A stretch of DNA of 64,000 nt, from contig CM046303.1 in NCBI GenBank assembly GCA_025267735.1, positions 32,030,380 through 32,094,379 of the forward strand. Reading direction: 5' to 3'. The notes beneath the pieces were generated by a model. That model was not told the origin of the DNA, ran no database searches, and worked only from the letters and a program-made list of their open reading frames with translations. Positions 11,574 to 38,227 of the stretch are shown here, in pieces; the first letter of the stretch is position 1; each line of letters starts with the position of its first letter. Origin of the DNA: Mactra quadrangularis. Taxonomy: Eukaryota > Mollusca > Bivalvia > Venerida > Mactridae. Position numbers and translations under genes: made by a program.

Positions 11574-11589
11574 TACGTTCGTCCCCAAA

Positions 11590-13561: not shown

Positions 13562-13593
13562 GACACTCGATTCCTAAATCACCACGCATAAAG

Positions 13594-13672
13594 ACGTCGC
13601 TGAAGTTAGCAAAATTTTTTTGGTAGCAAAAGTGGCCACAAGTTGCTATTTTTGCTAGCAAAATTTTTTTTA
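13594..13672 (+). repeat. Left terminal cap of the giant structure
   Basis: GAAGTTAGCAAAATTTTTTT...GTGGCCACAAGTTGCTATTT, then GCTAGCAAAA. It matches the right cap (37,985-38,057) in inverse orientation and is itself partly palindromic around GGCCAC. Confidence 0.88.
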
Positions 13673-13799
13673 TGTGAATAGTGAAATATTAATTTAGTGC
13701 TAAAACCAGGTACCATAACCAGTTATAAAACATGGCAAGTCCGTTTGTCGGCCCTGATGCCTCTAACTAGTTACTGAACAACTCCTATGGGTTATGTTA

Positions 13800-16700
13800 C
13801 CATTTTTATAGACATGGGTAGTGCTACCCACTGATTTCGCCGGGTACTTGCGTATACAAGGCATGAGGTCCGACCTTGGGCTATCACGTGGGCACAGTGG
13901 CCAGCCTGGGAAAATTCCGTGGGCTCGGGCCAAAGACCACAAAGTGTCGGTACTTAACGTTTTGTGTATAAAATCAGCACTCAGATGGGCCATATTTCAG
14001 GGCTCGAACGTCGAGTTAAAGCGATTTCGCCCGGTACTGGCGTATACCAGGCAAGAGGTCCGACCAAGTGCTTTCACGTGGGCACAGTGGCCACCCTGGG
14101 AAAATTCCGTGGGCTCGGGCCAGAGACCACTTAGTGTCGGTACTTTACGTTTTGTGTATAAAATCAGCACTCAGATGGGCCATGTTTCAGGACTCGAACG
14201 TCGAGTTAAAGCAATTTGGCCCGGTAATGGCTCAACCAGGCGAGAGGTCCGACCTAGGGCTATCATGTGGGCACAGTGGCCACCCTGGGAAAATTACGTG
14301 GGCTCGGGCTAGAGACCACTGAGTGTCGGTACTTTTCGTTTTGTGTATAAAATCAGCACTCAGATGGGCCATGTTTCAGGGCTCGAACGTCGGTTTAAAG
14401 CGATTTTGTCCGATACTGGCGCATACCAGGCGAGAGGTCTGACCTAGGGCTATCCTGTTGGCCTAGTGGCCAGCCTGGGAAAATTCTGTGGGCTCGGGCC
14501 AGAGACCACTAAATGTCGGTACTTTACGTTTTGTGTAAAAAATCAGCACTCAGATTGGCCATGTTTCAGGGCTCGAACGTCGAGTTAAAGCAATTTTGCC
14601 CGGTACTGGCGTATACCAGGCGATAGACCCGACCTAGGGCTATCACGTGGGCATAGTGGCCACCCTGGGAAAATTCCGTGGGCTCTGGCAAGAGACCACT
14701 AATTGTCAGTACTTTACATTTTGTGTATAAAATCAGAACTCAGATGGGCTATGTTTCAGGGCTCGAACGTCGAGTTAAGTGATTTCGCCCGGTACTGGCG
14801 TATACCAGGCGATAGGTCCAAGGTAGGGCTATCACGTGGGCACAGAGGCCAGCCTGGGAAAATTCCGTGGGCTCGGGCCAGCGACCACTTAATGTCGGTA
14901 CTTTACGTTTAGTGTATAAAATAAGCACTCAGATGGGCCATGTTTCAGGGCTCGAACGTCGAGTTAAAGCAATTTCGCCCGGTACTGGCGTATACCAGGC
15001 GATAGGTCCGACTTAGGGCTATCACGTGGGCACAATGGCCACCCTGGAAAAATTCCGTGGGCTCGGGCAAGAGACCACTAAGTGTCAGTACTTTACATTT
15101 TGTGTATAAAATCAGAACTCAGATGGGCTATGTTTCACGGCTCGAACGTCGAGTTAAAGCGATTTCGCCCGGTACTGGCGTATACCAGGCGATAGGTCCG
15201 ACCTAGGGCTATCACGTGGGCACAGTGGCCACCCTCGGAAAATTCCGTTGGCTCGGGCCAAAGACCACTAAATGTCGGTACTTTACGTTTAGTGTATAAA
15301 ATAAGCACTCAGATGGGCCATGTTTCAGGGCTCGAACGTCGAGTTTAAGCGATTTCGCCCGGTACTGGCGTATACCAGGCCATAAGTCCGACCTAGGGCT
15401 ATCATGTGGGCACAATGGCCAGTCTGGGAAAATTTCGTAGGCTCGGGCTAGAGACCACTAAGTGTCGGTACTTTACGTTTTGTGTATAAAATAAGCACTC
15501 AGATTGGCCATGTTTCAGGGCTCGAACTTCGAGTTTAAGCGATTTCGCCAAGTACTGGCGTATACCAGGCGAGAGGTCCAAGCTAGGGCTATCACGTGGG
15601 CACAGTGTCCAGCCTGGGAAAATTTCGTAGGCTCGGGCTAGAGACCACTAAGTGTCGGTACTTTTCGTTTTGTGTATAAAATCAGCACTCAGATGGGCCA
15701 TGTTTCAGGGCTCGAACGTCGTGTTAAAGAGATTTAGCCCGATACTGGTGCATACCAGGCGAGAGGTCTGACCTAGGGCTATCCTGTTGGCCTAGTGGCC
15801 AGCCTGGGAAATTTCTGTGGGCTCGGGGCAGAGACCACTAACTGTCGGTACTTTACGTTTTGTGTAAAAAATCAGCACTCAGATTGGCCATGTTTCAGGG
15901 CTCGAACGTCGAGTTAAAGCAATTTCGCCCGGTACTGGCGATAAATCCGACCTAGGGCTATCACGTGGGCACTGTGGCCACCCTGGAAAAATTCCGTGGG
16001 CTCGGGCCAGAGACCACTAATTGTCGGTACTTTACGTTTTGTGTATAAAATCAGCACTCAGACGGGCCATGTTTCAGGGCTGGAACGTCGAGTTAAAGAG
16101 ATTTCCCCCGGTACTGGCGTATACCAGGCGATAGGACCAAGCTAGGGCTATCACGTGGGCACAGTGGCCAGCCTGGGAAAATTCCGTGGGCTCGGGCCAG
16201 AGACCACTTAATGTCGGTACTTTACGTTTAGTGTACAAAATAAGCACTCAGAAGGGCCATGTTTCAGGGCTCGAACGTCGAGTTTAAGCGATTTCGCCCG
16301 GTACTGGCGTATACCAGGCGAGAGGTCCGACCTTGGGCTATCACGTGGGCACAGTAGCCACCCTGGGAAAATTCCGTGGGCTCGGGCCAGAGACCACTAA
16401 TTGTCGGTACTTAACGTTTTGTGTATAAAATAAGCACTCAGATGGGCCATGTTTCGGGGCTCGAACCTCGAGTTTCAGCGATTTCGCCAAGTACTGGCGT
16501 ATACCAGGCGAGAGGTCCATGCTAGGGCTATCACGTGGGCACAATGGCCAGCCTGGGAAAATTTCGTAGGCTCGGGCTAGAGACCACTAAGTGTCGGTAC
16601 TTTACGTTTTGTGTTTAAAATCAGCACTTAGATGGGCCATGTTTCAGGGCTCGAACGTCGAGTTAAAGCAATTTCGCCCTTTACTGGCGTATACCAGGCG

Positions 16701-17775
16701 ACAGGTCCGTCCTAGGGCTATCACGTGGGCACAGAGGCCACCCTGGGAAAATTCTGTGGGCTCGGGCCAGAGACCACTAAATGTCGGTACTTTTCTTTTT
16801 GTGTATAAAATCAGACTCAGAAGGGCCATGTTTCAGGACTCGAACGTCGAGCTAAAGCGATTTCGCCCGGTACTGGGGTATACTAGGCGAGGGGTTCGAC
16901 CTAGGGCTATCACGTGGGCACAGTGGCCACCTTGGGAAATTTCCGTGGGCTCGGGCAAGAGACCACTAAGTGTCGGTACTTTACATTTTGTGTATAAAAT
17001 CAAGACTCAGATCGCCCATGTGTCAGGGCTCGAACGTCGAGTTAAAGCGATTTCGCCCGGTCCTGGCGTATACCAGGCAAGAGGTCCAAGCTAGGGCTAT
17101 CACGTGGGCACAGTGGCCACCCTGGGCAAAATTCCGTGGGCTCGGGCCACAGACCAAGCTAGGGCTATCACGTGGTCACAGTGGCCTCCCGGAGAAAATT
17201 CCGTAGACTTAGGAAAGAGGCCACTTAGTGTCGGTACTTTACGTTTTGTGAATAAAATAAGCACCCAGATGGGCTGTATTGCAGGGCTCTAACGTGGAGT
17301 TAAATCGATTTCGCTGGGTACTGGCGTACACCAGGTGAGAGGTCCGACCTAGGGCTATCACTTGGGCACAGTGGCCACCCTGAAAAAATTCCTTGGGCTC
17401 GGGCCAGAGACCACTAAGTGTCGGTACTTTACGTTTTGTGTATAAAATCAGCACTCAGACGGGCCATGATCAGGGCTCGAACGTCGAGTTAAAGCGATTT
17501 CGCCCGGTACTGGCGTATACTAGGCGAGAGGTTCGACCTAGGGCTATCACGTGGGCACAGTAGCTACCCTGGGAAAATTCCGTGGGCATGAGCCAGAGAC
17601 CACTGATTGTCGGTACTTTACGTTTTGTGTATATAATCAGCACTCAGATAAGTTTCATGGCTCGAACGTTGCTGTAAAGTGATTTGGCCTTGTTATGGCG
17701 TATTCCATGCCAGAGATCAGACCTAGGCCTGTCACCTGGGAGAATTGGCTATCCTGATAAAATTCCACTTGACCC
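13800..17775 (+). repeat. Left arm: ~190-bp tandem array, about 21 units
   Basis: Consensus landmarks in each unit, in order: CCACTAAGTGTCGGTACTTT, ACGTTTTGTGTATAAAATCA, GATGGGCCATGTTTCAGGGC, TCGAACGTCGAGTTAAAGCG, GGTACTGGCGTATACCAGGC, GGTCCGACCTAGGGCTATCA and CCCTGGGAAAATTCCGTGGG. Units are diverged, with point changes and small indels. 190 is not a multiple of three, so frames break each unit and the ORFs (up to 167 codons) are not credible genes. Confidence 0.95.
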
Positions 17776-18647
17776 TCGTTCTATCGGGTTTTTTTAAGAT
17801 TCCTTTAGGTAAGACTTAGTTTCAAGAGAAAATTGGCGTAACCAAGTAGTATGAACTCCGTCGATAATTCACCATTACAAAACATTACACAGATTGTTGT
17901 CATAATGGCTTTATGGCTTTTAATTTGCATTTTTTTTAGCTCGGCAAACCGCTAAATTCGCTTCTGACAGGTGCTTTTGTGTATTTGTGTCAATATTTTG
18001 AAAACCAATTTCAATGAAAAACCAAAATGCACTACTTGCCGTTGATACTTTAAATATAGCAATCAAAAACATTTTAAACTACAAAAATGCACTTGAAATG
18101 CAAAAAAATCTTGAATTTTAATTTTGACCCTGGTTAATTCGACGCGGCGGCTAAAAAATCAAGTAACTGCATTTAAGCTGTTTTTGTTTAAATTACTGCA
18201 AAAAGCAATTGTGGTGAAATTATCAAATTTGTCCCCTTTTAGAGGTAATGATAATGAAACAATTGACAAGTTGGGAATACATAGATCTAGTCGGGTATGG
18301 TAGGCAGCGAAGACTGCCATATTATAAATATATTATTCTAATTTCACCATAGACCATAATCAACAGATTTCGATGTAAATCTTAGGAGTCTGAAACTCTT
18401 AAACATAGATTAGTATTTTAATTAATTCTTAAACAGTTTTTTTTCTTGGAATAACTTAATAAGGTCTTTTATGATAATGGTTATTGTTTTTTAATCTGGA
18501 TAAAGATTTTCAGAGCCCAACACTCATTTCTTAATTCATGCTGTGGTTAAAGTTCGTTTGAACTGGCAAATGAACTACAGTTAATTTAAGCCGTAGTAAG
18601 CCGTAGCTGGAAGATTTGTGCGGTTTCAATACATATATTGCTACGAG
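17776..18647. other. Non-repeated spacer, no gene recognised
   Basis: AT-rich, no mirrored counterpart on the right side of the giant structure. No coding or RNA feature seen. Confidence 0.5.
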
Positions 18648-18948
18648 ATTGTCACAGTGGGAGCAGTAATCTATTGCTTAAGGATCGATCGGCCCTTGTT
18701 TCGAATCCCACAATGGGCATTGCTAGTTTCCATGAGCAAGAAATTAACCAGCGATTGTTTCCACCCACGTGTAAATGGGTACCTGGGTATAATTTGCACC
18801 AATTTGTCAGCTGCACTAATAAGCGGCGTAATAGGGAGACTGATAGAAATATACCAGTAGCCCGACGAGCAGGAATAATAGCTGTAAAGTCGGTAAAAGT
18901 GCGTAACATAAAAACTCCGACTATAAAATGCCATTGCATTTTTTATTA
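18648..18948 (+). mobile_element. tRNA-derived SINE family B, copy 1
   Basis: Head with CACAGTGGGAGCAG (A-box-like) and TTTCGAATCCC (B box). The body CATGAGCAAGAAATTAACCA, GTGTAAATGGGTACCTGG, ATTTGTCAGCTGCACTAATA and tail ACTATAAAATGCCATTGCAT are shared with 57,565-57,877. Confidence 0.88.
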
Positions 18949-19589
18949 AGCTCTACAGCCTTTGTAACCATGCATGAGTCTGTACACATCTGCAAAGTCC
19001 TATTATCATATCTATTTGACTATAAAATAACTTCTGATTCTTAAATCATAAAATATAGCAATTAAATTGAAGTATCAGTATGAGGGTGGGATATATTTAC
19101 ATGTCTGTGCTTAATATTTATAACTCTGGATTATTACTATCAATGTACAATTGGGTCCACACGTTTCTTTACAATTGTTATAATTAGATATTCTTCAAAT
19201 GTTACTAGAACGTAAAGCAGAGTATCGATAAAATATGGTGTCGATCTCAAAATAATAATTTTCATGATAAGAAAATAAACAATATTCTGTGTAAGATTTT
19301 TTGCCGTCTTTTATTGGTACGTTTTTGAACTGTAACATGAATACTAGCACAATATTTCAGTCATAAGTCAGTAAAATGAAGTAGCACGTTTAATTTGATA
19401 CGTTCTTTAAAAAGGATAGTATTTATGGATCATCCTTAATTGTCAAGCGTCTGCGATGTCTACTCTTTTTACTTCAAAGGTCATACAGCTTTCATCCGAC
19501 CCAACCCAAACCCAGTTATTTTTTAAAACGTTTGTTTTTAATTTTTTTATTTGAATTTTATCAACACGTTTTATTTGATTATTTACTGA
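18949..19589. other. No gene recognised
   Basis: AT-rich spacer between SINE B and the transposase remnant. Confidence 0.45.
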
Positions 19590-19650
19590 GGCCAGCTCAC
19601 CTAACCAACTTTCCTGGACATGTTTAACTTTACCAGTACTCGCTTACCTC
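19590..19650 (-). mobile_element. SINE family A tail fragment
   Basis: GCTCACCTAACCAACTTTCC...GGACA...CCAGTACTCGCTTACC is the inverse of the SINE A 3' body (GGTGAGTACCGGTTATAGAC...GGAAAGTTAGGTTAGGTG). Confidence 0.6.
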
Positions 19651-19654
19651 TTCA

Positions 19655-20115
19655 TCTCCCTTTATAAATTATTCCTAAATGTTTTCTTCGCACTTCCTTG
19701 GCAGCACATATCCAGACAACTACAGATAACAATTCTCTGGGATGTCGTCATACGGAACATATGCATTTGTAGATTTTACTATTAGCTGTGTGCTGAACGA
19801 AAATTCTGTACCATGAATGATAACGATTGAAAATGTTTAGACGTTTTCGTCGCTCGTGACCTTGTTTAGTACGAAGCTGACGCGTATTGTTAGGTGTTGC
19901 GAGTGGATGACCATTTGGGTATATTTTGTCGGCTTTAAAAGAACGCAGTTTTCAGGAAATGGCAGTGCTGCTGAACCGATTTGATTCATAAGCATATATA
20001 GGTGCGCGTCATTTTGATGGCCAAAAAAATCCTGATTCCACATATCTCATCAGGCCTGCATTGTCTATAACTATCTTATTGTTTTATACTGTATCTAAAC
20101 TTTACTATACACGTA
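19655..20115 (-). pseudogene. PIF/Harbinger-type DDE transposase remnant, frameshifted
   Basis: Read on the - strand, pieces in two frames resemble the Harbinger nuclease domain in the expected order. First is VIDNAGLMRYVESGF, then, after a one-base shift in a run of seven T, FFGHQNDAHLYMLMNQIG and LPFPENCVLL. After another shift come RYHSWYRIFVQHTANSKIYK and RHPRELL. Family members show the same G-x-x-N-D-A-x-x-x, L-P-F-P-x-x-C-x-L-L and V-E-H-x-x-A...K-x-Y-K...R-H-P-R series. At least one in-frame stop and two shifts show it is dead. It lies in the left spacer of the giant structure. It may be an unrelated old insertion, or a trace of an enzyme once carried there. No terminal repeats of its own were identified. 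Function is inferred from motif order only. Confidence 0.72.
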
Positions 20116-20321
20116 TCATGATCATTTCAGTGGTAAGTCATATGGAAATGCAAAAACACTTAGAAAATCAAGTTCATTTATTTTGCTTGGCCTAACAATT
20201 TGATTGAAAATTGCTTTGAGAAAATCCCTTCGATTTGTACGTATTCAGTCATCCGCTCTCCGTCTAAGCTGTCCGCGTATACATCTCTAATAAGCCATGC
20301 ATACATGATCAAACGCTTTAA

Positions 20322-20512
20322 TTTATTTATTGGAGTTAACGCCGTATCAACACAATTTAGGTCATTTCACGGCATCCAGCGCTCCTAACCTAGCTTTCAT
20401 GGACCATTGTCTATAACTATTACTCACCCATCCTTCCACTAGGCCGGAAACTTTTCCATATTATCTAATCAATGGGGAAAATCGACATTATTGTCAAATT
20501 TTCATGGGATCA
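20322..20512 (-). mobile_element. tRNA-derived SINE family A, head-truncated copy
   Basis: Inverse of the family tail and body: TATTGGAGTTAACGCCGTAT, CAGCGCTCCTAACCTAGCTT, GGACCATTGTCTATAACTAT and ATTATTGTCAAATTTTCATG. The tRNA-like head is missing. Confidence 0.88.
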
Positions 20513-20933
20513 TACGCTTTAAAATCAGTGTAATACTTTTATGATGATATTCAAATCAATCGCGATCGAATGCATGGCGGTCATCTCGTCTAATTACCTC
20601 CGATAATTTCAATCTTAATAAAGTTTGACTCTTTCCGGTTACTTCGTTCATCTCCGTGGATTGAGTGACGTCATAGAAAAATAGTTCGATATCCTTGCGG
20701 GTATTCATATCAAGGGGCATGTTTAACAACTTCATGTCTGTCGCTAGCTAGCGCTTTTTTGAAGGCTAGCTAGCCAGCCAATTTTGAGTAGCATATTAGC
20801 ACTCGCCTTGTGAAACGTGCCCAGTATAAAACGAAAAGTTTGGAACAGTTTGTTTTAAATGATTTCATGTTCAACAAGCGCTTAACTTAAAAATGATTAT
20901 AGAAAAAACATTCTCTAATTAACTCATATTAAA
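20513..20933. other. No gene; contains a CTAGCTAG-rich stretch
   Basis: TCGCTAGCTAGCGC and GGCTAGCTAGCCAGCC (20,738-20,780) are short self-complementary runs just outside the inner palindrome. A TGACGTCA-like site (GTGACGTCAT) occurs near 20,665. Confidence 0.5.
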
Positions 20934-20944
20934 CATGTATGTGA

Positions 20945-21398
20945 AGACAGCAGTAACAGCAGTACAGCAGTACAGCAGTACAGCCCTACTGCCAGAATTT
21001 TCGGCAGTACAGCAGTACAGCCCTACTGCCAGCAGTACAGCCCTACTGCCAGAATTTTCGGCAGTACAGCAGTACAGCTCTACTGCCAGAATTTTCGGCA
21101 GTACAGCAGTACAGCCCTACTGCCAGAATATTTGGCAGTACAGCAGTAGAGCCTTACTGCCAGAATTTTAGGCAGTACAGCAGTACAGCCATACTGCCAG
21201 AATTTTCGGCAGTACAGCCTTACTGCTAGAATTTTTCGGCAGTACAGCAGTAAAGCCTTACTGCTTGAGTTTTCGACAGTACAGCAGTAAAGCCTTACTG
21301 TTAGAATTTTCGGCAGTACAGCATTACTGTTAGAATTTTCGGCAGTAAAACCTTACTGTTAGAATTTTCGGCAGTAGGGCAGTACTGTTGCAGACTGC
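20945..21398 (+). repeat. CAGTA-rich minisatellite, left copy
   Basis: Repeats of GGCAGTACAGCAGTACAGCC followed by CTACTGCCAGAATTTTC, with variable numbers of AGTACAGC. CAGTA and TACTG alternate, so each unit can pair with itself. Confidence 0.95.
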
Positions 21399-21568
21399 TG
21401 TATCATTCTAGCAAATCATTCTTTATTTTGCCTCTCAGAATTCTCAGATCATAAAAGTTATATGTTTGAATTCTCTATAAGGTCCAAAATTAAAAAAAGA
21501 ACATATAGAGCCATTCTAGGATGTGGGATATGTTAAAATCAATACTATAAAATATGAAAATAAAAAAA

Positions 21569-21772
21569 GTTTGTTTGTTTTAATTGGGTTTAACGTCGCA
21601 TTCAACTCACATTTAGGTTATACAATGTATATACGACATCCAGCTCTTCCTACTATAATACCCTACCACGAGACTGACAACTCATGTATAGGGTATGACA
21701 TCGTACCGCGACCGGACTCGAACCCGTGATCTCCGGATTCGAAGTCAGACATGCTACGCCACTGCTGCAGCT
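21569..21772 (-). mobile_element. tRNA-derived SINE family C, left-arm copy
   Basis: On the - strand: head with GACTTCGAATCCGGAGATCA and GGGTTCGAGTCCGG (B box), body ATACCCTATACATGAGTTGT, tail GCGACGTTAAACCCAATTAA then AACAAACAAAC. It sits at the position mirrored by 30,520-30,733. Confidence 0.9.
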
Positions 21773-21794
21773 AAATAAAGAAGTAGAATGAAGG

Positions 21795-24700
21795 AACACA
21801 TTTAGTGATCCGAGGACTTGGATAATTATATACATGTTTTTTCTTGTTAGGTTTATATCTATGTTTTATTTACAAAAAAAATGTTCTACACGATCACAAG
21901 TTACTGCTGGTTCTTGTGACACTATGACCATGAAATATTCCATTTACTTCCCATTTTCGGAAAGCTGAATGAACAAGCTTTCTTTTGGTATATAATACTG
22001 CTACAAGTTCGAGTAAGTATTTAACTCTGGATGAGTTATATAACGAACAGTTTTTCAAATTTTTTTAATTCTCTACACAGAGAACTGCTTCAAACGTACA
22101 GAAGGACCTATCTCTGATGGCAATATTTGCAACGTAGTTGTAACAATATCAACGACAAAAGCATGTTTATGCAATGTTTACAAATAACCATAAAGAATAA
22201 AAAATACGGCTTTATTAAGTGATGGAAGTGCTTCAAGAAATATACTAAATATTTTTTGTTTGGTAGGTACCTTTTTTACAAAAAAAATGTCCTGCACTAC
22301 CGCAAGTTACTGCTGGTTCTTGCGACATTATGACCAAAACATATGCCATAAAATACACGTGTTCTGAAAGCTGAATAAACAAGCTTTCATTTGGTATATA
22401 ATACTGCTATAAGTTCGTGTAAGTATTTAACTCTGGACGAGTTATATAACGAACAATTTTCAATTTTTATTTCATTTCTCTACACAGAGAACTGATTTAA
22501 ACGTACAGAAGGATCTATCTCTGATGGCAATATTTGTAACGTATTTGTAACAATATCAACGGCATTACATGCATATGCAGTGTATAAAATAACCATAAAT
22601 AATGAAAAATACGGCTACATTGAGCGATCAAAGTGCTTCAAGAAATATATTCAATATTCTAGTTTGGTAGGTACTTTTTTCAAAAAAAAATGTCCTGCAC
22701 TACCGCAAGTTACTGCTGGTTCTTGCGACATTATGACCAAAACATATGTCATAAAATTCACATTTTCTGAAAGCTGAATGAACGAGCTTTCATTTGGTAT
22801 ATAATACTGCTACAAGCTCGTGTAAGTATTTAACCCTGGATGAGTTATATAACGAACAGTTTTTTAATTTCTATTTGAATTCTCTACACAGAAAACTGAT
22901 TCAATCGTACAGAAGGACCTATCTCTGATGGTAATATTTGCAACGTAGATGTAACAATATCAACGGCAATAACATGTTTATGCAATGTTTAAAACTAACC
23001 ATAAAGAATAAAAATTACGGCTTTATTAAGTGATCAAAGTGCTTCAAGAAATGTACTAAATATTTTTGTTTGGTTGGTACCTTTTTTTAAAACAAAATGT
23101 CTTGCACTACCGCAAGTTACTGCTGGTTCTTGCGACATTATGACCACAACATATGCCATAAAATACACATTTTCTGAAAGCTGAATAAACAAGCTTTCAT
23201 TTGGTATATAATACTGCTACAAGTTCGTTTAAGTATTTAACTCTGGACGAGTTATATAACGAACAATTTTCAATTTTTATTTCATTTCTCTACACAGAGA
23301 ACTGATTTAAACGTACAGAAGGACCTATCTCTGATGGCAGTATTTGTAACGTATTTGTAACAATATCAACGGCATTACATGCATATGCAGTGTATAAAAT
23401 AACCATAAATAATGAAAAATACGGCTACATTGAGCGATCGAAGTGCTTCAAGAAATATATTCAATATTCTTGTTTGGTAGGTACTTTTTTACAAAAAAAA
23501 TGTCCTGCGCTACCGCAAGTTACTGCTGGTTCTTGCGACATTATGACCAAAACATATGTCATAAAATTCACATTTTCTGAAAGCTAATTGAACGAGCTTT
23601 CATTTGGTATATAATACTGCTACAAGCTCGTGTAAGTATTTAACCCTGGATGAGTTATATAACGAACAGTTTTTTAATTTCTATTTGAATTCTCTACACA
23701 GAAAACTGATTCAATCGTACAGAAGGACCTATCTCTGATGGCAATATTTGCAACGTAGATGTAACAATATCAACGGCAATAACATGTTTATGCGATGTTT
23801 AAAACTAACCATAAAGAATATAAAATACGGCTTTATTAAGTGACCGAAGTGCTTCAAGAAATGTACTAAATATTTTTGTTTGGTTGGTACCTTTTTTTAA
23901 AACAAAATGTATTGCACTACCGCAAGTTACTGCTGGTTCTTGCGACATTATGACCACAACATATGCCATAAAATACACATTTTCTGAAAGCTGAATGAAC
24001 AAGCTTTCATTTGGTATATAATACTGCTACAAGTTCGTGTAAGTATTTAACTCTGGACGAGTTATATAACGAACAATTTTTAATTTTTATTTCATTTCTC
24101 TACACAAAAAACTGATTTAAACGTACAGAAGGACCTTTCTCTGATGGCAATATTTGTAACGTATTTGTAACAATATCAACGGCACTACATGCATTTGCAG
24201 TGTATAAAATAACCATAAAGAATGAAAATACGGTATATTAAGTGATCGAAGTGCTTCAAGAAATATACTAAATATTCTTGTTTGGTAGGTATCTTTTTTA
24301 CAAAAAAATGTCCTGCGCTACCGCAAGTTACTGCTGGTTCTTGCGACATTATGACCAAAACATATGTCATAAAATACACACTTTCTGAAAGCTGAATGAA
24401 CGAGCTTCCATTTGGTATATAATACTGCCACAAGTTCGTGTAAGTATTTAACTCTGGATGAGTTACATAACGAACAGTTTTCATTTTTTTTTAATTGTCT
24501 ACACAGAGAACTGATTCAAACATACTGAAGGACCTATCTCTGATGGCAATATTTGCAACGTAGTTGTAACAATATCAACAGCAATAACATGTTTATGCAG
24601 TGTTTAAAAATAACCATAAAAAATGAAAAATACGGCTTCATTAAGTGATCGAAGTGCTTCAAGAAATATACTAAATATTCTTGTTTGGTAGGTACCTTTT

Positions 24701-26576: not shown

Positions 26577-26828
26577 AACTTCCGGGTATAGAAAGACAGC
26601 GGAACCAAATTGTTTTCGCGAAAACATTTTTTTTTACGCAAACAACAAATTATTATGTGAAGGACTTTTGTAACAAAACTAGCTCATTTAACGTGTTTTA
26701 TAATATGCTTTCATAAATATCAAGTTTGTTTGAATAAAAACCATATCGTATTTATGTAACAGGTGGTAACGAATATGTAAAAATGAAAAATCAAGTTGTT
26801 TCCGCTATCTATCTTTACCCGGAAGTTG
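26577..26828. repeat. Centre of the inner palindrome
   Basis: ACTTCCGGGTATAGAAAGAC...AGCGGAA (26,579-26,603) is mirrored by TTCCGCTATCTATCTTTACC...CGGAAGT (26,804-26,826), leaving a ~200-bp AT-rich loop. Confidence 0.82.
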
Positions 26829-26959
26829 GTCTTAAATGCGGAGAAAATATCAAGATTAATTACCACGCTGACAGAAATGTCATAAGATAAACTTATACAG
26901 TTTATAAAAACCAACATAACAATGTATCATATATAAAATTAAAGCTTGTCCATTCGACT

Positions 26960-29900
26960 TTTTGAAAATGTATATTAAATGGTATATTTACCAGTCACAA
27001 CAACACCAAAAACAGCAGTAACTTACAATATACATGTAAAATGGTATTAAAATTTGCACGAAGTACGTAAACTTTACCAACGCTTACGCTCTTTTTTTCA
27101 ACCACTAATAAAACAATTCGTGCTGATGTAATCGTCCATGTTTTCTCTTTATTTTGATATAAATTATCATTGATTTTTATGCAGATCTGTAACAAATATT
27201 GAGAGAAGTCTTTAAATCTGCACATTTAATTTGAATCCCGAGTAAACATTCTAAACTTGAAAGATATGTATTAAATTAAATATATCCGATGTTGAAAACT
27301 ATCGACAACATAAAGCAGTACTATATACCAAATTAAAGCTTGATCCTTTAGCTTTGTGAATATGTGTATTGAATAGTATGTTTACCCAGTCATTGGATCA
27401 CAAAAAACAGCAGTAACTTACAATAGCGAAGTTAAAGTTTGAACGAAGTACGTGAACATAACCAACCCTCAGAGCTCTTATTTCTGCCAGTATTAAAGCA
27501 ATGAATGTTAATGTAATTGTCAATGTTTAATATGAATTACCATTGTTCTATATCCATATTTGCAGCAAATTTGAAATTTAAGATAAGTCCTATCTGTACA
27601 TTTAATCCAACGCCGAGTAGGGTTCGGATAAAAATTGAAGAGCATATTCCTAATAAAACTCGTTCAGTGTGAAATTTTGCCACGATCTGGTAGAAGTATT
27701 ATATACCAAATGAAAACTTGCTCATTCAGCTTCACGAAAACGGGTGATAAAAAGCATAGTTTTAGCGTCACAAGAACTAGCAGTAACTTGTAAAACTTTT
27801 TGGAAAAAACACAGGGATACTAAATCTACAAGATTCTTTTAAAGTTTTATTATAGATTATTATCTTTAGCCGTAGTCTTATACGCCTATTTAATACATAC
27901 ATGTAAAACCCTAGATTTTTTAAACATATTCGATGCAAATATTGACATCATAAACAGGCGCTATCTGTACGTTTAACTACGTACTCTGTGTTGAGAGTTC
28001 AAACGAAAATTGAAAAACTGTTCGTAATAAAACTCATCCAGCGTAAAATACTTAAATGAGCCTGTAGCAGAATTATATACCTAATGAAAGCTTGTTTATT
28101 CATCTTTACAAAAATGGGCACTACAAAGCATACTTTTCATTCATAACGTCACAAGTATCAGCAGTAACCTCTGATTGCAAGGGACGTTTTTTAAAAAATC
28201 ACTTTAATTTTAGCATCCCAAAACGAATGTATAATATGTATATATATTTTTAAACAGTCAAGTACTTACAATGTTGTTTGTAGCTGAGTTCTTTCATTCT
28301 TCATTCTTATTTAGATAAATGTTACGTCATAGCTTTTTTAAACACTGTTGGAAAACATTGGCATCAAAAATAGGCCCTATATGTATGTACAATATGGACA
28401 TTCGCGTAGAAATTCAAATGAAAAAAAAATGTTGTTTATAAAACTAATATAGTGTCAGAAAAAACAAGAAGAACTAGTAGCAGTATTATATACCAAATGA
28501 AAGCTTGTTCATTCAGCTTTCAGAAAATGGGTATTTTATGGCGTATGTTTTGATCATATTGTCGCAAGAATCAGCAGTAACTTGCGGTAGCGTAGGGCAT
28601 TTTTTGTAAAAAAGTACATACCAAACAAGAATATTGAATATATTTCTTAAAGCACTTCGATCACTCAATGTAGCCACATTTTTCATTCTTTATGGTTATT
28701 TTTATACATTGCATATACATGTAATACCGTTGATATTATTACAAATACGTTGCAAATATTGTCATCAAAAGTAGGTCCTTCTGTACGTTTGTATCAGTTC
28801 CCTGTGCAGAGAATTCAAATAAAAATTGAAAAACTACTTGTAATATAACTCATCCAGTGTAATCTACTTACACAAACTTGTAGCAGTATTATATACCAAA
28901 TGAAAGCTTGTTCACTTAGCTTTACGAAAATGAGTAGCAAATGACACAGTTTTCGATCATAGCGACACAAGAACCAGCAGTAACTTCTGATTACGAGGGT
29001 TATTTTTTGTAAAAATATGTTTATTTTACTAACCCAATAGAACTCATCCAGTGTAAATAACTTACACGAACTTGTAGCAGTATTATATACCAAATGAAAG
29101 CTTGTTAATGCAGCTTTCAGAAAATATGTAATTTATGGCCAATGTTTTGGTCATATTGTCGCAAGAACCAGCAGTAACAAGAGGTAGCGTAGGACATTTT
29201 TTTTGTTAAAAGGTATCTACCAAACAAAAATATTGAATATATTTCTTGAAGCTCTTCGATCACTTAATATAGCCGTATTTTTCATACTTCATGGTAATTT
29301 TTATACATTGCATAAACATGTTATTGCCGTTGATATTGTTACAACTACGTTGCAAATATTGCCATCAGAGATAGGTTCTTCTGAACGTATAAATCAGTTC
29401 TCGGTGTAGAGAATTCAAATAAAAATTGAAAAACTGTTCGTTATATAACTCACCCATAGTTAAATACTAACACGAACTTGTAGCAGTATTATATACCAAA
29501 TGAAAGCATGTTAATTTTACTTTACGAATATGTGTAATTTATGGCATATGTTTCGGTCATATTGTCGCAAGAACCAGCAGTAACTTGCGGTTACGTAGGA
29601 CATTTTTTGTAAAAAAGTACCTACCAAACAAGAATATTGAATATATTTCTTGAAGCACTTCGAACACTTAATGTAGCCGTATTTTTCATCTTTTTTGGTT
29701 ATTTTCATACACTGCATATACTCTTTATGCCGTTGATATTGTTACAAATACTTTGCAAATATTACCATCAGAGATAGGTCCGTCTGTACATTTGAAACAG
29801 TTCTCTGTGTAGAGAAATCAAATAAAGATTGAAAAACTGTTCGTTATATAACTCATTCAGAGAAAATTACTAACACGAACTTGTTGCAGTATTTTATACC

Positions 29901-30480
29901 AAATGAAAGCTTGTTCATTAAGCTTTCAGAAAATGGGTATTTTATGGCATATGTTTTGGTCATATTGTCGCAAGAACCAGCAGTAACTTGCGGTAGCGTA
30001 AAACATTTTTTTGTCAAAAATGTACATACCAAACAAGAATATTGAATATATTTCTTGAAGCACTTCGATCACTCAATGTAGCCGTATGTTTTCATTCTTC
30101 ATGGTTTTTTTATGCATTGCATATCCATGTTATGCCGTTGATATTATTACAAATACGTTGCAAATATTGACATCAGAGATAGGTCGTTCAGTACGTTTGA
30201 ATCAGTTCTTTGTGTAGAGAATTAAAAAAAATGAAAAACTGTTCGTTATATAACTCATCCAGAGTTAAATACTTACACAAACTTGTAGCAGTATTATATA
30301 CCAAAAGAAAGCTTGTTCATTCAGCTTTCCGAAAATGGGAAGTAAATGGCATATTTCATGGTCATAGTGTCCAAAGAACCAGCAGTAACTTGTGATCGTG
30401 TAGAACATTTTTTGTAAATAAAACATGGATATAAACCTAACAAGAAAAAACATGTATATAATTATCCAAGTCTTCGGATC
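26960..30480 (-). repeat. ~405-bp tandem array, right arm (inverted)
   Basis: Reverse-complement landmarks ACCAGCAGTAACTTGCGGTA and TACCAAATGAAAGCTTGTTC recur at roughly 400-bp spacing. Units near the centre are decayed; those from about 28,450 to 30,400 are well preserved, as in the left arm. Confidence 0.93.
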
Positions 30481-30519
30481 ACTAAATGTGTTCCTTCATT
30501 CTACTTCTTTATTTAGCTG

Positions 30520-30733
30520 TGCACAGCAGTGGCGTATTGGTTAGCATGTCTGACTTCGAATCCGGAGATCACGGGTTCGAGTCCGGTCGCGGTACGATGT
30601 CATACCCTATACATGAGTTGTCAGTCTCGTGGTAGGGTATTATAGTAGGAAGAGCTGGATGTCGTATATACATTGTATAACCAACCTAAATGTGTATTGA
30701 ATGCGACGCTAAACCCAATTAAAACAAACAAAC
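30520..30733 (+). mobile_element. tRNA-derived SINE family C, right-arm copy
   Basis: GTTAGCATGTCTGACTTCGA, GGGTTCGAGTCCGG, ATACCCTATACATGAGTTGT and tail GCGACGCTAAACCCAATTAA. It has the same flanks as the left-arm copy, so it was present before the arms were duplicated. The tRNA-like head is part of a longer element. Confidence 0.92.
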
Positions 30734-30904
30734 TTTTTTTATTTTCATATTTCATAGTATTGATTTTAACATATCCCACATCCTAGATTGGCTCTATATG
30801 TTCTTTTTTTTATTTTGGACCTGATAGAGAATTCAAACATATAACTTTTATGATCTGAGAATTCTGAGAGGCAAAATAAAGAATAATTTGCTAGAATGAT
30901 ACAG

Positions 30905-31183
30905 CAGTCTGCAACAGTACTGTCCTACTGCCGAAAATTCTAACAGTAAGGTTTTACTGCCGAAAATTCTAACAGTAATGCTGTACTGCCGAAAACTCAA
31001 GCAGAAAGGCTTTACTGCTGTACTGCCGAAAAATTCTAGCAGTAAGGCTGTACTGCTGTACTGCCAAAAAGTCTTGCAGTAGGGCTGTACTGCTGGCAGT
31101 AGGGCTGTACTGCTGTACTGCCGAAAATTCTGGCAGTAGGGCTGTACTGCTGTACTGCTGTACTGCTGTTACTGCTGTCTTCA
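30905..31183 (-). repeat. CAGTA-rich minisatellite, right copy (inverted)
   Basis: GCCGAAAATTCTGGCAGTAG and GGCTGTACTGCTGTACTGCC repeated. Shorter than the left copy (about 280 versus 450 bp). Confidence 0.94.
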
Positions 31184-31191
31184 CATACATA

Positions 31192-32146
31192 TATTAAACT
31201 TACTGTATGCTTTTAAACAACCGTTTCAAGTCACATTCATGAAATCAATTATTATGTTACTATAATTGCTAATATGATTTTGACTAAATATTAAACGAAT
31301 AATAATAATAATTATATTTCTTTTTTAACCTGATGGTAATTGAATTAATAAATGTTATACTACAAAGTCTTCTGACTTGATGTGCTATACATATGAATAC
31401 TAAAGCAAAATAAACAATACGTGTTTATTTAGATACTAGGCTTATCAGATTGAAATGACAGATTAATGGTTCATCCGCTGTTAAATTGACTGAAGTGGCC
31501 AGATAATGTTTTCATAGTGGTTCTGGACATAACGGTATCAGTCCTACGTCTTACACCAGTTGAGAGCATCCAATGGATGATGGGGCTTATCAGGGAAACT
31601 ATAATCGTTTTATTGACCACAAGCAATTAGCACAGTCATAAATCTACATTAATTTGGCACTTACTGTGCTGGCTTGTTTGATTGTGATTGATCATGAACA
31701 TGTGTACTATTTACATTGAATGAGAAATAGAAACATAACACCAGTGTTGTTGTATTTGTGAGCACGTATTATACTGTTTTAAATTTTAAATCATATTTCA
31801 AAAGATCTTATTTTGTAAGAAGAGTGAACCGTTTTACTACATCATTACTGCACCTAATAATACACATGTAATGACTTATGTTTTTATAAAATGCGTCTTA
31901 TGACTATAATTTTAGGAACACAATCCATTTTATACCCTATGACTTTTTAAAACATGAATTTGATTGGTAAGGACATCAGATTACAGACACCTTATCACTC
32001 ATTCTGAAAAGTAGATGTTGCTACATGTATGAATAATAATGTGACATTGAAGTATTTTCACTAGAATAATTTAGATACTGTGATTTGTCTATTATGCTAA
32101 TATACTTGTTAATATTGTAACGAGTTCACCCGGACGACTGTGGACG
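31192..32146. other. No gene recognised
   Basis: AT-rich spacer inside the giant structure, without a counterpart on the left side. Confidence 0.45.
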
Positions 32147-32188
32147 CGTGTATAGATCTACGTACGATGTATCGTTTAGATCTATACA
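32147..32188. repeat. Imperfect palindrome around AGATCTATAC
   Basis: GTATAGATCTACG...CGTTTAGATCTATAC surrounds TACGATGTAT. A local hairpin in a more GC-rich stretch beginning TGTAACGAGTTCACCCGGAC. Confidence 0.75.
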
Positions 32189-32589
32189 GCCGGAGTCGAT
32201 CTACGTCAATGGGGGTTTCTCCGAGGTGAACTGGTTGATATCGGGTTTGAGAGGCCTGTCGAGTGGTTCTCTTACATCAGTGGTTCAATTGGTAGCGTGA
32301 ACGATTGAAGTTCACTCGATGCTCTCATCCAAACTGTCCGCGTACCAGGTACACAAAGGTGAACACAAACACAACTCGTTGGTAAAGTTTCAACTCGAAC
32401 GTTTTATTTTACGTTAAAATAATTCTATACATATGCACAATTTATCAATACTACATGTATACTATGAAGGTGAAATTTATAAGAACGCTTGAAGCTCAGA
32501 AAAGCATCTTACAAATAAAAATCGTTGACTTCAACAATAACCTGACCCTCTGGTAACCGTGATCAAAATGAGCTTAACGAACAATTTTC

Positions 32590-32775
32590 CGCCCGGGGGT
32601 TTTTATAGTAAATTTCCGCCCATCAACCAAAAGTGGGTGCTTTTTGGTTGATTCCGCCCAAAATTGGGTGCTTTTTGGTTGTTTCCACCCATTGGCTAAC
32701 TCGACCAAAAAACACCCAATAAATGGGTGCTTTTTGGTCGATTCTGCCCAAAAAGCACCCCATTTTTTGGGCGGC
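32590..32775. repeat. Interleaved inverted repeats of GGGTGCTTTTTGGTYGA
   Basis: GGGTGCTTTTTGGTTGATTC, GGGTGCTTTTTGGTTGTTTC and GGGTGCTTTTTGGTCGATTC alternate with the inverse ACCAAAAAACACCCA and AAAAAGCACCCC. Both strands therefore read similar peptide strings (for example STKKHP), an effect of the inverted repeats. Confidence 0.85.
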
Positions 32776-32784
32776 TTATCCAAC

Positions 32785-32858
32785 CGTGAAATTTCTAAGC
32801 AGACAACGATTTGTATATACTGGTATATACAAATCGTTGTCTGCTTAGAAATTTCACG
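32785..32858. repeat. Perfect palindrome, 36-bp arms, 2-bp centre
   Basis: Left arm begins CGTGAAATTTCTAAGCAGAC and ends TTTGTATATAC (32,785-32,820). The centre is TG, and the right arm (32,823-32,858) is its exact complement. No mismatches seen. Confidence 0.97.
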
Positions 32859-32918
32859 ATAGTAATTCTAAGTTATTTTAGTCATTGGTCAATGACTAAA
32901 ATAACTTAGAATTACTAT
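32859..32918. repeat. Second perfect palindrome, 29-bp arms, 2-bp centre
   Basis: Starts at the base after the previous palindrome. Arm ATAGTAATTCTAAGTTATTT...TAGTCATTG (32,859-32,887), centre GT, exact complement at 32,890-32,918. Confidence 0.97.
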
Positions 32919-33689
32919 TAAACAACAAAAATACAGATAAATCTATGACTATAATACCTTGATTTGGCCCCTAAACAATCTTTTAGACGAAAACATAGTT
33001 CCTTAAGACTGTACAGCGTAGGAATAAATTCCCAGAGTTCGATGTAAACATGACAGGAACGCTGACATAAGACAAAATGTGCTCATAACAAAATGGATCA
33101 AAACTCGCCTTATAACTGGATTTAAACATTAACATTCAGCAAAAGTGTAAGGAAATAACTAATTCACATCTAGGATTAGGATTTAACATCGAAGGATACA
33201 AATTAACTGGAATATAGAGGATCCAAATATGCGAACGTCGCGAAAACTGGTTACGAAACATAATGGATAAACAAACATTGATTTGAGCTCAGAATCCTAG
33301 TTCATAACCTACATATATGCGCTAATGTGTTCTGTGTGTTGCCCAGAACACTAGTCATTATGTGCTTTATGGCTAGAGACATGCATCATGCTCTCAAAAC
33401 AGGAAACACGGAACGGAGCAAATTTAAACATGTATTACAAGGTAACTTTTGGTTTCAAACTGTTATTATGTGTATTAAACCCCGGCCCGTTTCAATATGT
33501 TGTGTGAAGCGTCACAATTGGTAAGTCCGTTTTTCTCCTACCTTAGATTTATCATCATCATCGTCGTCATCCTAATCAACATCCGGTTTTAAGTTTAGTA
33601 CAAGCCGTTGATTATTCTTTCGGCAAGGGTGAGGTTTGTCTTTCTTGTGTAGAAGTGTTCCTCTTCATATCTGGTGGTCCTGATGGTTG
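32919..33689. other. No gene recognised
   Basis: No repeat or coding feature of note in this spacer. Confidence 0.4.
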
Positions 33690-33835
33690 GTGTCATACAT
33701 TTTAAGTTACAATCGATCACGCTCTTCCAGGTCTTCCCAGGTTAAATCTGATCAACCTTGGCCATGGTGTGCTGTGATCTTCAAATTTCTCACTTGGGAG
33801 GTCCAGCTTGTGACCAAGCCATCTCAGCATCTTGG
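33690..33835 (-). pseudogene. Decayed non-LTR retrotransposon (LINE) C-terminal fragment
   Basis: On the - strand KMLRWLGHKLDLPSEKF is followed, after a frame change, by GKTWKSVIDCNLK. R-W-L-G-H and the G-R-P-x-K-T-W-x-x-V-x-x-x-D-L-K type end are typical of the C-terminal region of LINE ORF2 proteins. Short, shifted and non-functional; the clade is not determined. Confidence 0.5.
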
Positions 33836-34081
33836 TTGTACAAAACTATTATATACTATTATTAAGCTTAAGTGTAAAATTCAAGTTGTATATTGGAGTT
33901 TTTTTGACACGCAGACTAATTAAACAATATGAGAGTCATATTGTCACAGTACATAACATTGACTAATTACAACAGTAATCATAGTAATAAGTAAATTCAA
34001 TCGGTCTTTATTGTTAAATGACCCAGGCAGATTTTTTATTGTGAAGAGAGAATGACAAAACATGTAATCGACACATTTGAT

Positions 34082-34226
34082 AACTCCGGCCATTCTTCCT
34101 CCTGCCACTGATTCTCAATCATGTAGGGCAGTAGTCAGTGACTGACAACGTATGCACCAAGTAGTTTGTTAACAGCTAAATCCAGAGGTTACGTGAGTAG
34201 GGGGACTGACCGCTGTGATATGACCT
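34082..34226 (+). mobile_element. SINE-like family D, fragment
   Basis: CATTCTTCCTCCTGCCACTG, ATCATGTAGGGCAG and GTTTGTTAACAGCTAAATCC match the copies at 8.6 and 9.6 kb. Confidence 0.75.
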
Positions 34227-34439
34227 GTACGGAAATGAATTACGTCAAGGCAAGACATAAGCCCTAAAATTGGAACCATCTAAGTGCTGATTTAAGAAGT
34301 ATACGCAAGGTACAAGCAATTAAAGGTTTAAGACCCATGTCTTCACATCTTTTCGAGATAGACACTGTGGTAACGCGATGGCCGTGGGTCAGAACTTATG
34401 CCTGAAATAGGCCTGTACTCGGTCTGTAATCGCCTTCAA

Positions 34440-37400
34440 ACAGCCCATCGAAATGTTGATTTAATACACCCTATATTTTATACCCTAACCACATTAAGTG
34501 GTCTCGCGCCAATGCCCACGAAAATTCCCCAGGGTAGTCACTGTGCCAACGTGATAGCCCTAGGCCGGACCTCTCGCCTGGTATACGCCAATATCCGGCA
34601 AAATCGCTTTAACACGAGATTTGTGCCCTGAAACAGGGCCCGTCTGAGTGCTGATTTTATACACAAAACGTTAAGTACCGACACTTAGTGGTCTCTGGCC
34701 CCAGCCTACGGAATTTACCCAGGGTGGCCACTGTGCCTACGTGATAGCCCTAGGTCGGACCTCTCGCTTGGTATACGCCAGTACCGGGCAAAATTGCTTT
34801 TACTCGACGTTCGAGCTCTGAAACATGGCCCATCCGAGTGATGATTTTTTACACAAAACGTAAAGTACCGACAATTAGTGGTCTCTGGCCCGAGCCCACG
34901 GAATTTTCCTAGAATGGCCACTGTGCCTACGTGATAGCCCTAGGTCTGACCTCTCGCCTGGTATACGCTAGTACCGGGCGAAATCGCTTTAACTCGACCT
35001 TAGAGCCCTGAAACATGGCCCGAGTGCTGATTTTACACACAAAACGTAAAGTACCGACATTTAGTGGTCTCTGGCCCGAGCCCATGGAATTTTCCCAGGG
35101 TGGCCACTGTGCCAACTTGATAGCCCTAGGTCGGACCTTTCGCCAGGTATACACCAGTACCGGGCGAAATCACTTTAACTCGACGTTCGAGCCCTGAAAC
35201 ATGGCCCATCTGAATGCTGATTTTATACACAAAACGTAAAGTACCGACATTTAGTGGTCTCTGGCCCGTGCCAACGGAATTTTCCGAGGGTGGCCACTGT
35301 GCCCACGTGATAGCCCTAGGTCGGACCTCTCGCCTGGTATACGCCAGTACCGGGCGAAATCGCTTAAACTCGACGTTCGAGCCCTGAAACATGTCCCATC
35401 CGAGTGCTGATTTTTTACACAAAACGTAAAGTACCGACACTTAGTGGTCTCTGGCCCGAGCCCACGGAATTTTCCCAGGGTAGCCACTGTGCCCTTGTGA
35501 TAGCCCTTGGTCGGACCTCACGCCTGGTATACGCCAGTACCGGGTGAAATCGCTTAAACTCGACGTTCGAGCCCTGAAACATGGCCCATCCGAGTGCTGA
35601 TTTTATACACAAAACGTAAAGTACCGACACTTAGTGGTCTCTGGCCCGAGCCCACGGAATTTTCCCAGGGTGGCCATTGTGCCCACGTGATAGCCCTAGG
35701 TCGGACCTCTCGCCTGGTATACGCCAGTACCGGGCGAAACCGCTTAAACTCGACGTTCGAGCCCTGAAACATGGCCCATCCGAGTGCTGATTTTATACAC
35801 AAAACGTAAAGTACCGACACTTAGTGGTCTCTGGCCCGAGCCAACGGAATTTTCCCAGGGTGGCCACTGTGCCCACGTGATAGCCCTAGGTCGAACCTCT
35901 CGCCTGGTATACGCCAGTACCCGGCGAAATCGCTTAAACTCGACGTTCAAGCCCTGAAACATGGCCCATCCGAGTGCTGATTTTATACACAAAACGTAAA
36001 GTACCGACACTTAGTGGTCTCTGGCCCGAGCCCACGGAATTTTCCGAGGGTGGCCACTGTGCCCACGTGATAGCCCTAGGTCGGACCTCCCGCCTGGTAT
36101 ACGCCAGTACCGGGCGAAATCGCTTAAACTTGACGTTCGAGCCCTGAAACATGGCCCATCCGAGTGCTGATTTTATACACATAAAGTAAAGTACCGACAT
36201 TTAGTGCTCTCTGGCCCGAGCCCACGGAATTTTTCCAGGGTGGCCATTGTGCCCACGTGATAGCCCTAGGTCGGACCTCTCGCCTGGTATACGCCAGTAC
36301 CGGGCGAAATCGCTTAAACTCGACGTTCGAGCCCTCAAACATGGCCCATCCGAGTGCTGATTTTATACACAAAACGTAAAGTACCGACATTTAGTGGTCT
36401 CTGGCCCGTGCCAACGGAATCCGAGGGTGGCCACTGTGCCCACGTGATAGCCCTAGGTCGGACCTCTCGCCTGGTATACGCCAGTACCGGGCGAAATCGC
36501 TTAAACTCGACGTTCGAGCCCTGAAACATGTCCCATCCGAGTGCTGATTTTTTACACAAAACGTAAAGTACCAACACTTAATGGTCTCTGGCCCGAGTCC
36601 ACGGAATTTTCCCAGGGTGGCCACTGTGCCCACGTGATAGCCCTAGGTCGGACCTCTCGCCTGGTATACGCCAGTACCGGGCGAAATCGCTTAAACTCGA
36701 CGTTCGAGCCCTCAACCATGGCCCATCCATGTGCTGATTTTATACACAAAACGTAAAGTACCGACACTTAGTGGTCTCTGGCCCGAGCCCACGGAATTTT
36801 CCCAGGGTGGCCACTGTGCCCTTGTGATAGCCCTTGGTCGGACCTCACGCCTGGTATACGCCAGTACCGGGTGAAATCGCTTAAACTCGACGTTCGAGCC
36901 CTGAAACATGGCCCATCCGAGTGCTGATTTTATACACAAAACGTAAAGTACCGACACTTAGTGGTCTCTGGCCCGAGCCCACGGAATTTTCCCAGGGTGG
37001 CCACTGTGCCCACGTGATAGCCCTAGGTCGGACCTCTCGCCTGGTATACGCCAGTACCGGACGAAATCGCTTAAACTCGACGTTCGAGCCCTGAAACATG
37101 GCCCATCCGAGTGCTGATTTTATACACAAAACGTAAAGTACCGACACTTAGTGGTCTCTTGCCCGAGTTCACGGAATTTTCCCAGACTGGCCTTTGTGCC
37201 CACGTGATAGCTCTTGGTCTGTCCTCATTCCTTGTATACGCCAGTACCCGGCGAAATCGCTTTAACATGAGATTCGAGCCCTGAAACATTGCCCGTTTGA
37301 GTGCTGATTTTATCCACATAACGTAAGTACCGACTTTTAGTGGTCTCTTGCCTGAGTCGACGGAATTTTCTAAGGGTGGCCACTATGCCCACGTGATAGC

Positions 37401-37985
37401 CCTAGGTATAACCTCTCGCCTTGTATACGCCAGTACCCGGCTTAATCACTTTAACTCTGGATTCGAGCCATGAAACATGGCCCATCTGTAATCTGTTTTA
37501 TCCACAAAACGTAAAGTACCGACTTTTAGTGGTCTCTGGCCCAAGCCCAAGGAATTTTCACAGGATGGCCACTGTGCCCACGTGATAGCCTTAGGTCGGA
37601 CCTCTTGCCTGGAATGCGCCAGTACCCGGCAAAATCGCTTTAACTCGACGTTCGAGCCCTGAAACATTGCCATTCTAAGTGCTGACTTTAAGTGGTCTTT
37701 GGTTCAAGCCCATGGAATTTTCCCAGAGTAGCCACTATGTCCAAGTGATAGCCCTAGATCAGACCTCACGCGTGGTATCCGCCGTATCCGGCCAAATCGC
37801 TTTAACATGAGATTCGAGCCCTGAAACATGGCCCATCTGAGTGCTGATTTTATACACAAAACGTAAAGTACCGACATTTTGTTATTTCTGGTTCAATCCA
37901 CGGAATTCTCTAAGGGTAGCCACTATGCCAACGAGATAACCCTGAGTCAGACCTCTAACATGGTATACACCATTATCCCAGTAAA
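34440..37985 (-). repeat. Right arm: ~190-bp tandem array, about 18-19 units, inverted
   Basis: Same unit as 13,800-17,775 in reverse complement. Units from about 35,250 to 37,150 are nearly uniform, with overlapping ORFs starting exactly 190 bp apart, while both edges are diverged. A block is duplicated within the array: CTGGCCCGTGCCAACGGAAT occurs at 35,261 and 36,401, exactly six units apart. Confidence 0.95.
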
Positions 37986-38057
37986 AAAATTGCTAGCAAA
38001 AATAGCACTTTGTGGCCAATTTTGCTAGCAAAAAAAATTTGCTAACTTCAGCGACGT
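37985..38057 (-). repeat. Right terminal cap of the giant structure
   Basis: TTGCTAGCAAAAATAGCACT, GTGGCCAATTTTGCTAGCAA and GCTAACTTCAGCGACGT mirror the left cap. Confidence 0.88.
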
Positions 38058-38227
38058 TCTATACTTGATTTGTATAGTCTCAAAATTATTGAACTGCGTC
38101 AATGAATATTTACATGCTTAATACATATACTGCATACTATATGTCTGACAATATTCAAACTTTTCCTTATTTTCGCATGGGTTTATAGATCGCGCCATCA
38201 GCATATAGATGAAAAAAGATGAAATTG

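Follow-up and report, generated by a model that had tools for sequence, protein, structure and literature searches.

The window, meaning the whole stretch of 64,000 nucleotides that was analysed, is AT-rich and holds, between 13594 and 38057, a palindrome that lies within another palindrome. This nested layout had been proposed in a first-pass annotation and is borne out: the terminal caps pair in inverted orientation, the tandem arrays lie on opposite strands and the spacers do not pair. As had also been described there, the outer arms are 190-bp arrays with paired terminal caps. The left cap (13594–13670, + strand), which begins with ACGTCGCTGAAGTTAGCAAA, is the inverted match of 38057–37983, that is, of the right cap (37983–38057, − strand), at 90.9% identity over 77 columns. 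From the left cap to its array runs a left-end sequence (13671–13781, +) that has no counterpart in the right end. It is followed by the left arm (13782–17721, +), whose final units are decayed, and the right arm occupies 34224–37943 (−). TRF places the arrays at 13833–17648 and 34514–37852, and a consensus HMM of the unit finds 42 matches in the window, a few of them partial or decayed, with 22 on the + strand in the left arm and 20 on the − strand in the right arm. The 190-bp units are almost as similar between arms as within them (88.4, 87.5 and 87.4%), and the best match of a unit lies in its own arm in 28 of 39 cases. A higher-order period of seven units, hinted at by single pairs, was rejected as hardly supported: in the left array, identity at lag 7 is 91.3%, against 89.1–90.7% at other lags, and mean identity per lag reveals no such period in the right array.

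The spacers that separate the outer arms from the inner palindrome are a left core (17722–20925) and a right core (31200–34223). They are unmirrored, as had been stated, since BLAST gives no match between the two in either orientation. No open reading frame between stops exceeds 167 aa in the window. Pfam was searched in six frames of 17649–20925, 25238–28841, 31200–34513 and 1–10000. In these stretches it yields nothing but two sub-threshold matches in the right core, to DUF5623 (E 0.076) and DUF4328 (E 0.38), both under the curated cut-offs; the left core has no match at E ≤ 1. Neither a transposase, MuDR-type included, nor a capsid-type domain appears in the stretches scanned. The lack of longer reading frames and of Pfam matches above threshold in these stretches led to the rejection of a coding core. 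The reading frame at 58499–58876 has no homologue at E ≤ 0.01, and Rfam returns no family at threshold. Some other repeats are also present. For instance, 47985–48200 is a 108-bp tandem duplication with two copies that match at 99% (TRF), and 59144–59284 contains short repeats in which GGACATTTGCCCCC occurs together with a nearly inverted version of itself (TRF; inverted self-match). A dispersed repeat in the left spacer (18676–18940) is 75.6% alike to 57588–57877, at the far right of the window. Another dispersed repeat, of about 190 bp, has copies within the left spacer as well as within the left-hand DNA (20318–20507, 6469–6658, 5236–5422, 5007–5134, and 9470–9660 of locus L065), and is by position unrelated to the 190-bp arrays.

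The inner palindrome spans 20935–31190. Both of its ends start with ATGTATGTGAAGACAGCAG, and a perfect 9-bp duplication, ATATTAAAC, flanks it at the exact termini, with identical copies at 20926–20934 and 31191–31199 (both +). Because the termini match and the duplication is perfect, the inner palindrome is read as an inserted element. Its outermost bases, ATGTATGTGAAG, adjoin the duplication; they were absent from the first-pass annotation, and the layout is corrected here to include them. The left arm (20935–26294, +; TRF, BLAST, HMM and arm alignment) is composed of the terminus, a CAGTA minisatellite, a single-copy stretch, a SINE-like stretch (21572–21775, +) and a 403-bp array that decays inward. 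The right arm (26923–31190, −; BLAST, HMM and arm alignment) is its mirror, with a SINE-like stretch at 30515–30730 (−; arm alignment). The minisatellite, the SINE-like stretch and the array that had been assigned to this palindrome are all found in each arm. The description of the array also needs a correction, as a decayed form of it persists almost to the axis near 26.6 kb: TRF places the arrays at 21869–25237 and 28842–30418, and a consensus model of the 403-bp unit finds 22 matches (12 on + and 10 on −) that fade toward the axis. At the centre (26295–26922), arm-to-arm identity is 69.0%, which is close to that of shuffled sequence (mean 63.7%, maximum 67.6%). Long inverted repeats that contain tandem repeats, as expected of foldback-type elements, are present both in the inner copy of the window and in the outer family.

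The two inner arms are not equally alike along their length. In the SINE-like stretch, 198 of 201 aligned bases match between the mirrored copies, and in the single-copy stretch that includes it 469 of 479 are identical (18 gap columns). The outermost 403-bp units of the two arms (L1 and R1) have 92.0% identity, and no other unit is as similar to either of them. Nearer the axis, the decayed block has 73.5% identity in mirror register over 1027 columns, and the decayed parts of the arms reach 77.8% by global alignment, against a shuffled mean of 64.9%. The palindrome is older than the SINE, yet the SINE is in both arms, which suggests that the outer part of one arm has been overwritten with the sequence of the other; the difference between 469 of 479 identical bases there and 73.5% near the axis favors the same reading. 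In effect, nested palindromes may be used to date copying between arms, as the outer part with the SINE is 98% alike and the parts near the axis are old. A third, more distant SINE-like copy lies at 45615–45795, where 157 of 187 aligned bases agree with those of the inner arms.

The inner element is not confined to this locus. A 182-bp piece of the arm outside the SINE is found at 98–100% identity in all 40 scored places (window included; 295 candidates), and all six neighbor pairs closer than 40 kb among them face inward, 6.8–10.4 kb apart. These matches and inward pairs therefore define a dispersed family that shares the foldback form. As the other copies hold the stretch that flanks the SINE at 98–100%, copying between the arms may date back to an ancestor from which today's copies descend.

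The outer caps are also dispersed. A search for further loci with the same cap, which had been suggested as a check, recovers 250 sites of the exact 20-base sequence in the 979-Mb genome (129 and 121 by strand) and none for the reversed-pattern control. Among 100 sites listed, 26 neighbor pairs lie within 60 kb, of which 23 face inward, two outward and one in the same direction; the inward pairs span from 386 bp to 44.5 kb. With 23 of 26 pairs inward, and with neither a cap nor common sequence at the inner sides of the arms, it was rejected that the outer arms are two independent one-armed insertions. A 16.3-kb copy on C1 has a perfect 9-bp duplication, GCTTAATTG, at both flanks, and so does a 386-bp miniature on C6 (GACATTTTG), which consists of a cap, the left-end stretch, a single unit of the 190-bp type and the other cap, and whose left 296 bp, including the stretch of 13671–13781, align at 80% with the window. 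A copy of 1.5 kb on C5 is flanked by ATTTATTC and GTTTATTC, an imperfect 8-bp duplication with one mismatch, and a cap pair at C11:35.19–35.22 Mb has unlike flanks, with no duplication. Hence, among the four cap-to-cap copies outside the giant class described below for which both flanks were read, two have a perfect 9-bp duplication, one an imperfect duplication and one none.

The copies predicted by the first-pass annotation were thus found at many loci, for the caps, for their left-hand flank and for the inner arms, and this recurrence makes misassembly unlikely. In particular, that inverted arrays have been collapsed or misjoined is hardly credible here: such arrays are hard to assemble when they are long, and one copy (L063) has 100 N in its left-hand DNA, but the inner duplication is perfect and the same caps, flank and arms occur at many loci that have unlike neighbors. 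It had also been proposed that the locus is a functional source of double-stranded RNA or small RNAs, or a satellite organizing center. This putative role, which we consider improbable, fits the long mirrored arms and the presence of satellite-type arrays inside a dispersed element, as in Tetris, according to the part of its description available (PMC4079207).

The outer copy of the window lacks a 9-bp target-site duplication, as CGCATAAAG stands on its left and TCTATACTT on its right. This absence goes against a simple single insertion at 13594–38057, which was rejected because, in addition, the left flank is common to other copies. Indeed, 34 of 40 scored matches to the left cap (window included; 517 candidates) also match the 34 bases outside it, 13560–13593, and the remaining six begin at the cap itself (query position 34–36). 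In the 30 left-cap loci that were fetched, the flank always ends in CACGCATAAAG, or in one case in CACGCATAAAA. The right side behaves differently: in the other 19 right-cap loci, resemblance to the window stops at 38057–38076, and just outside the cap the bases are different in 20 of 20 loci, the window being one of them. Position 38057 is consequently the exact right end of both the outer element and the giant unit, whereas 13594, which had been taken as the left end, is passed by a repeated unit that continues leftward. All of 1–13593 belongs to this unit as left-hand DNA that travels with the outer element; it has no long open reading frame, and the unit extends beyond the window. Within it, to the left of the left cap, a decayed array of 71–74-bp units (11579–12833) is unmirrored on the right.

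Other copies help to delimit this giant unit. On C17, a copy is 99.4% identical to the window, which lies on C11, over 14.9 kb, from −2818 to 12052 (negative positions lie left of the window), and its similarity extends to at least −14470, through unmirrored 77- and 460-bp arrays. At L065 648–2284 and 3181–6245 (about −9.35 to −3.75 kb), the copy numbers of these 77-bp and 460-bp unit arrays differ between C11 and C17. The right flank of the C17 copy is ATTTTCAAC, and that of the window copy is TCTATACTT. Cap to cap, the C17 outer copy occupies about C17:22775097–22798116 and holds an inner-element arm at C17:22793375–22793553, which is oriented as a right arm and is the only arm there among the 40 scored places. 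The locus L079 (C17:22718500–22723499) has open reading frames of 511 and 354 aa, which we take to resemble the reverse transcriptase/RNase H and the tyrosine recombinase of DIRS-type retroelements. On C16, a copy has 99.1% identity over 1847–12042, with an insertion near 3185. The left edges of two further copies are untrustworthy, since on C14 there are 100 N immediately left of the point where similarity stops, at 7565, and on C9 it stops at 5169.

A probe from −17.9 to −17.3 kb matches 40 scored places (of 375 candidates) at 94–100% identity. In 26 of these, the window included, a known right cap follows 40.7–74.9 kb on in the correct orientation, and the other 14 have no right cap among the caps listed. 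A probe at −100 kb is single-copy except for a repeat of about 206 bp. If this copy is typical, the left end of the giant unit would consequently lie between −17.9 and −100 kb. In the window copy the unit covers at least C11:32012479–32068436, or 55,958 bp, with at least 31 kb left of the left cap. No second cap (up to two mismatches) and no exact second TCTATACTT occurs from −10 kb to the end of the window. The copies are very similar to one another: among 30 of them, mean pairwise identity is 98.5% (minimum 86.4) over the 700 bp left of the cap and 99.2% over the first 239 bp from it.

The shared left-hand DNA may suggest that a larger transposon, of a different kind, contains the caps and arrays in its interior and has its true left end and its enzyme further left. 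This is unlikely: the common DNA does precede the left cap for at least 31 kb, but cap-to-cap copies exist that lack it, two of them with perfect duplications, and the stretches scanned show no transposase or capsid-type domain. Given those cap-to-cap copies, the caps by themselves are true ends. Two loci outside the giant class, L067 (C11:35222350–35223349) and L070 (C1:24522500–24523499), share another identical 40-bp left flank, so foldbacks may have captured flanks more than once.

The main rival, which still appears rather unlikely, is that the giant unit was spread by non-allelic recombination or by replication-based segmental duplication, with breakpoints at the foldback cap. The absence of a duplication around the window's outer element would agree with this, as would the resemblance of its left-hand 10 kb and of the scanned cores to ordinary non-coding DNA; moreover, Galileo offers known examples of foldback-type copies that have mismatched flanks and are recombinant chimeras, as described in the available part of that report (PMC3573991). 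Nevertheless, in 20 of 20 loci, spread over many contigs, the break falls at the same base, 38057, and the flanks are different; the cut of a transposase accounts for this better than recombination breakpoints do.

The locus is probably made of two nested, non-autonomous foldback DNA transposons, with the outer one at the right end of a giant unit that measures at least 56 kb. The nested-foldback part of this reading is favored by the inner duplication, the matching termini, the dispersal of the inner arms, the cap counts, the inward pairs and the duplications GCTTAATTG and GACATTTTG; the giant unit is favored by the left flank common to 34 of 40 matches, the near identity of C11 and C17, the probe at −17.9 kb and the right flanks that all differ. 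It is weakened by the outer copy without a duplication, by the two cap-to-cap copies whose duplication is imperfect or missing, by the 14 probe places without a listed right cap, by the absence of a second cap or second TCTATACTT from −10 kb to the end of the window and by the lack of a transposase in what was scanned. Of the "giant non-autonomous foldback element" that had been put forward, the kind therefore stands, and its extent does not, as there are two elements and the outer one lies within a unit that extends leftward by at least another 31 kb.

In terms of mechanism, the ends of the outer element are the ACGTCGCTGAAG caps backed by inverted 190-bp arrays, and the 10.3-kb inner element inserted into its core with a 9-bp target duplication. 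Both would be mobilized in trans by a transposase encoded elsewhere, presumably of the Mutator/foldback type, and the repeated arms are plausible carriers of repeated, putative binding sites for it. Arms would evolve through the gain and loss of units and through copying from one arm to the other. Perhaps the two elements use a common transposase, as their termini share 13 of 21 bases, a level matched by 22 of 20,000 random pairs; the combined-terminus pattern, with up to three mismatches allowed, occurs at five places in the window (the four termini, which are exact, and one other with two mismatches), against 1.29 expected by chance. This resemblance is taken as a hint and not as proof. At some point, the outer element would have gained its left-hand DNA, and both would have dispersed together in a giant unit bounded on the right by the outer right cap. 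The favored reading is that this unit would have been transposed by means of the right cap and of a left end located farther away, in a manner like that of Ising. A more specific version, in which a foldback element now serves as the right end of a giant composite transposon, at least 56 kb long, that consists largely of arrays and of non-coding DNA captured from the host, has spread to tens of sites with about 98–99% identity and has a second foldback family in its core, is tentative and falls somewhat short of being probable.

Foldback elements are already known as movers of large segments in Drosophila. If the above is true, tens of recent copies of one foldback-ended unit would be available, from whose sequence one could read directly where the left end lies, which target duplications were made and how large a moved segment can be. 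The locus also illustrates how satellite-type arrays may be ferried around a genome by an element. Helitrons, which have unlike ends, are not known to make target-site duplications. A Helitron or Helentron carrier was rejected, since the ends here are inverted and 9-bp duplications are present.

The known systems are compared here on the basis of parts of their published descriptions. Oyster Helentron/Helitron carriers similarly have dispersed satellite-type arrays within a mobile element (PMC7492417). At this locus, by contrast, the ends are inverted and 9-bp duplications occur. Galileo shares long inverted repeats with internal tandem repeats, and copies with non-matching flanks; by contrast, it has 7-bp duplications and a P-superfamily transposase, whereas none was found here in the stretches scanned (PMC3573991), and the duplications are of 9 bp in three copies instead of the 7–8 bp of the Galileo/P superfamily. 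Tetris, of Drosophila virilis, also has tandem repeats in inverted arms (of about 220 bp), a flanking outer domain, no coding region and 8–10-bp duplications (PMC4079207). Its arms, however, reach at most 1.7 kb, compared with about 4 kb here, and the part of its description consulted reports no giant travelling flank (PMC4079207). As in Tm1, a Mutator/Foldback element of root-knot nematodes, and in FB elements, the inverted termini consist of tandem repeats, the arms are unequal, the duplications are of 9 bp, and non-autonomous and miniature forms exist (PMC3169594). Nesting is also shared, as one Tm1 copy holds an unrelated element; in contrast to Tm1, with units of about 14 bp, this locus has arms that extend over kilobases in units of 190 and 403 bp, two nested foldback families and no transposase in the stretches scanned (PMC3169594). 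The presumed Mutator/foldback type agrees with the 9-bp size of the duplication, which fits both Tm1 and Tetris, as far as these partial accounts go (PMC3169594, PMC4079207). The titles and starts of abstracts that were found describe no foldback-ended giant unit in many copies, which is not proof of absence. In Ising, of Drosophila melanogaster, very large DNA segments likewise travel with foldback elements (PMC6431247). The segment there lies between foldback elements (PMC6431247), whereas the unit described here, present at many places, shows such an end on its right side alone, and its left end lies beyond −17.9 kb.
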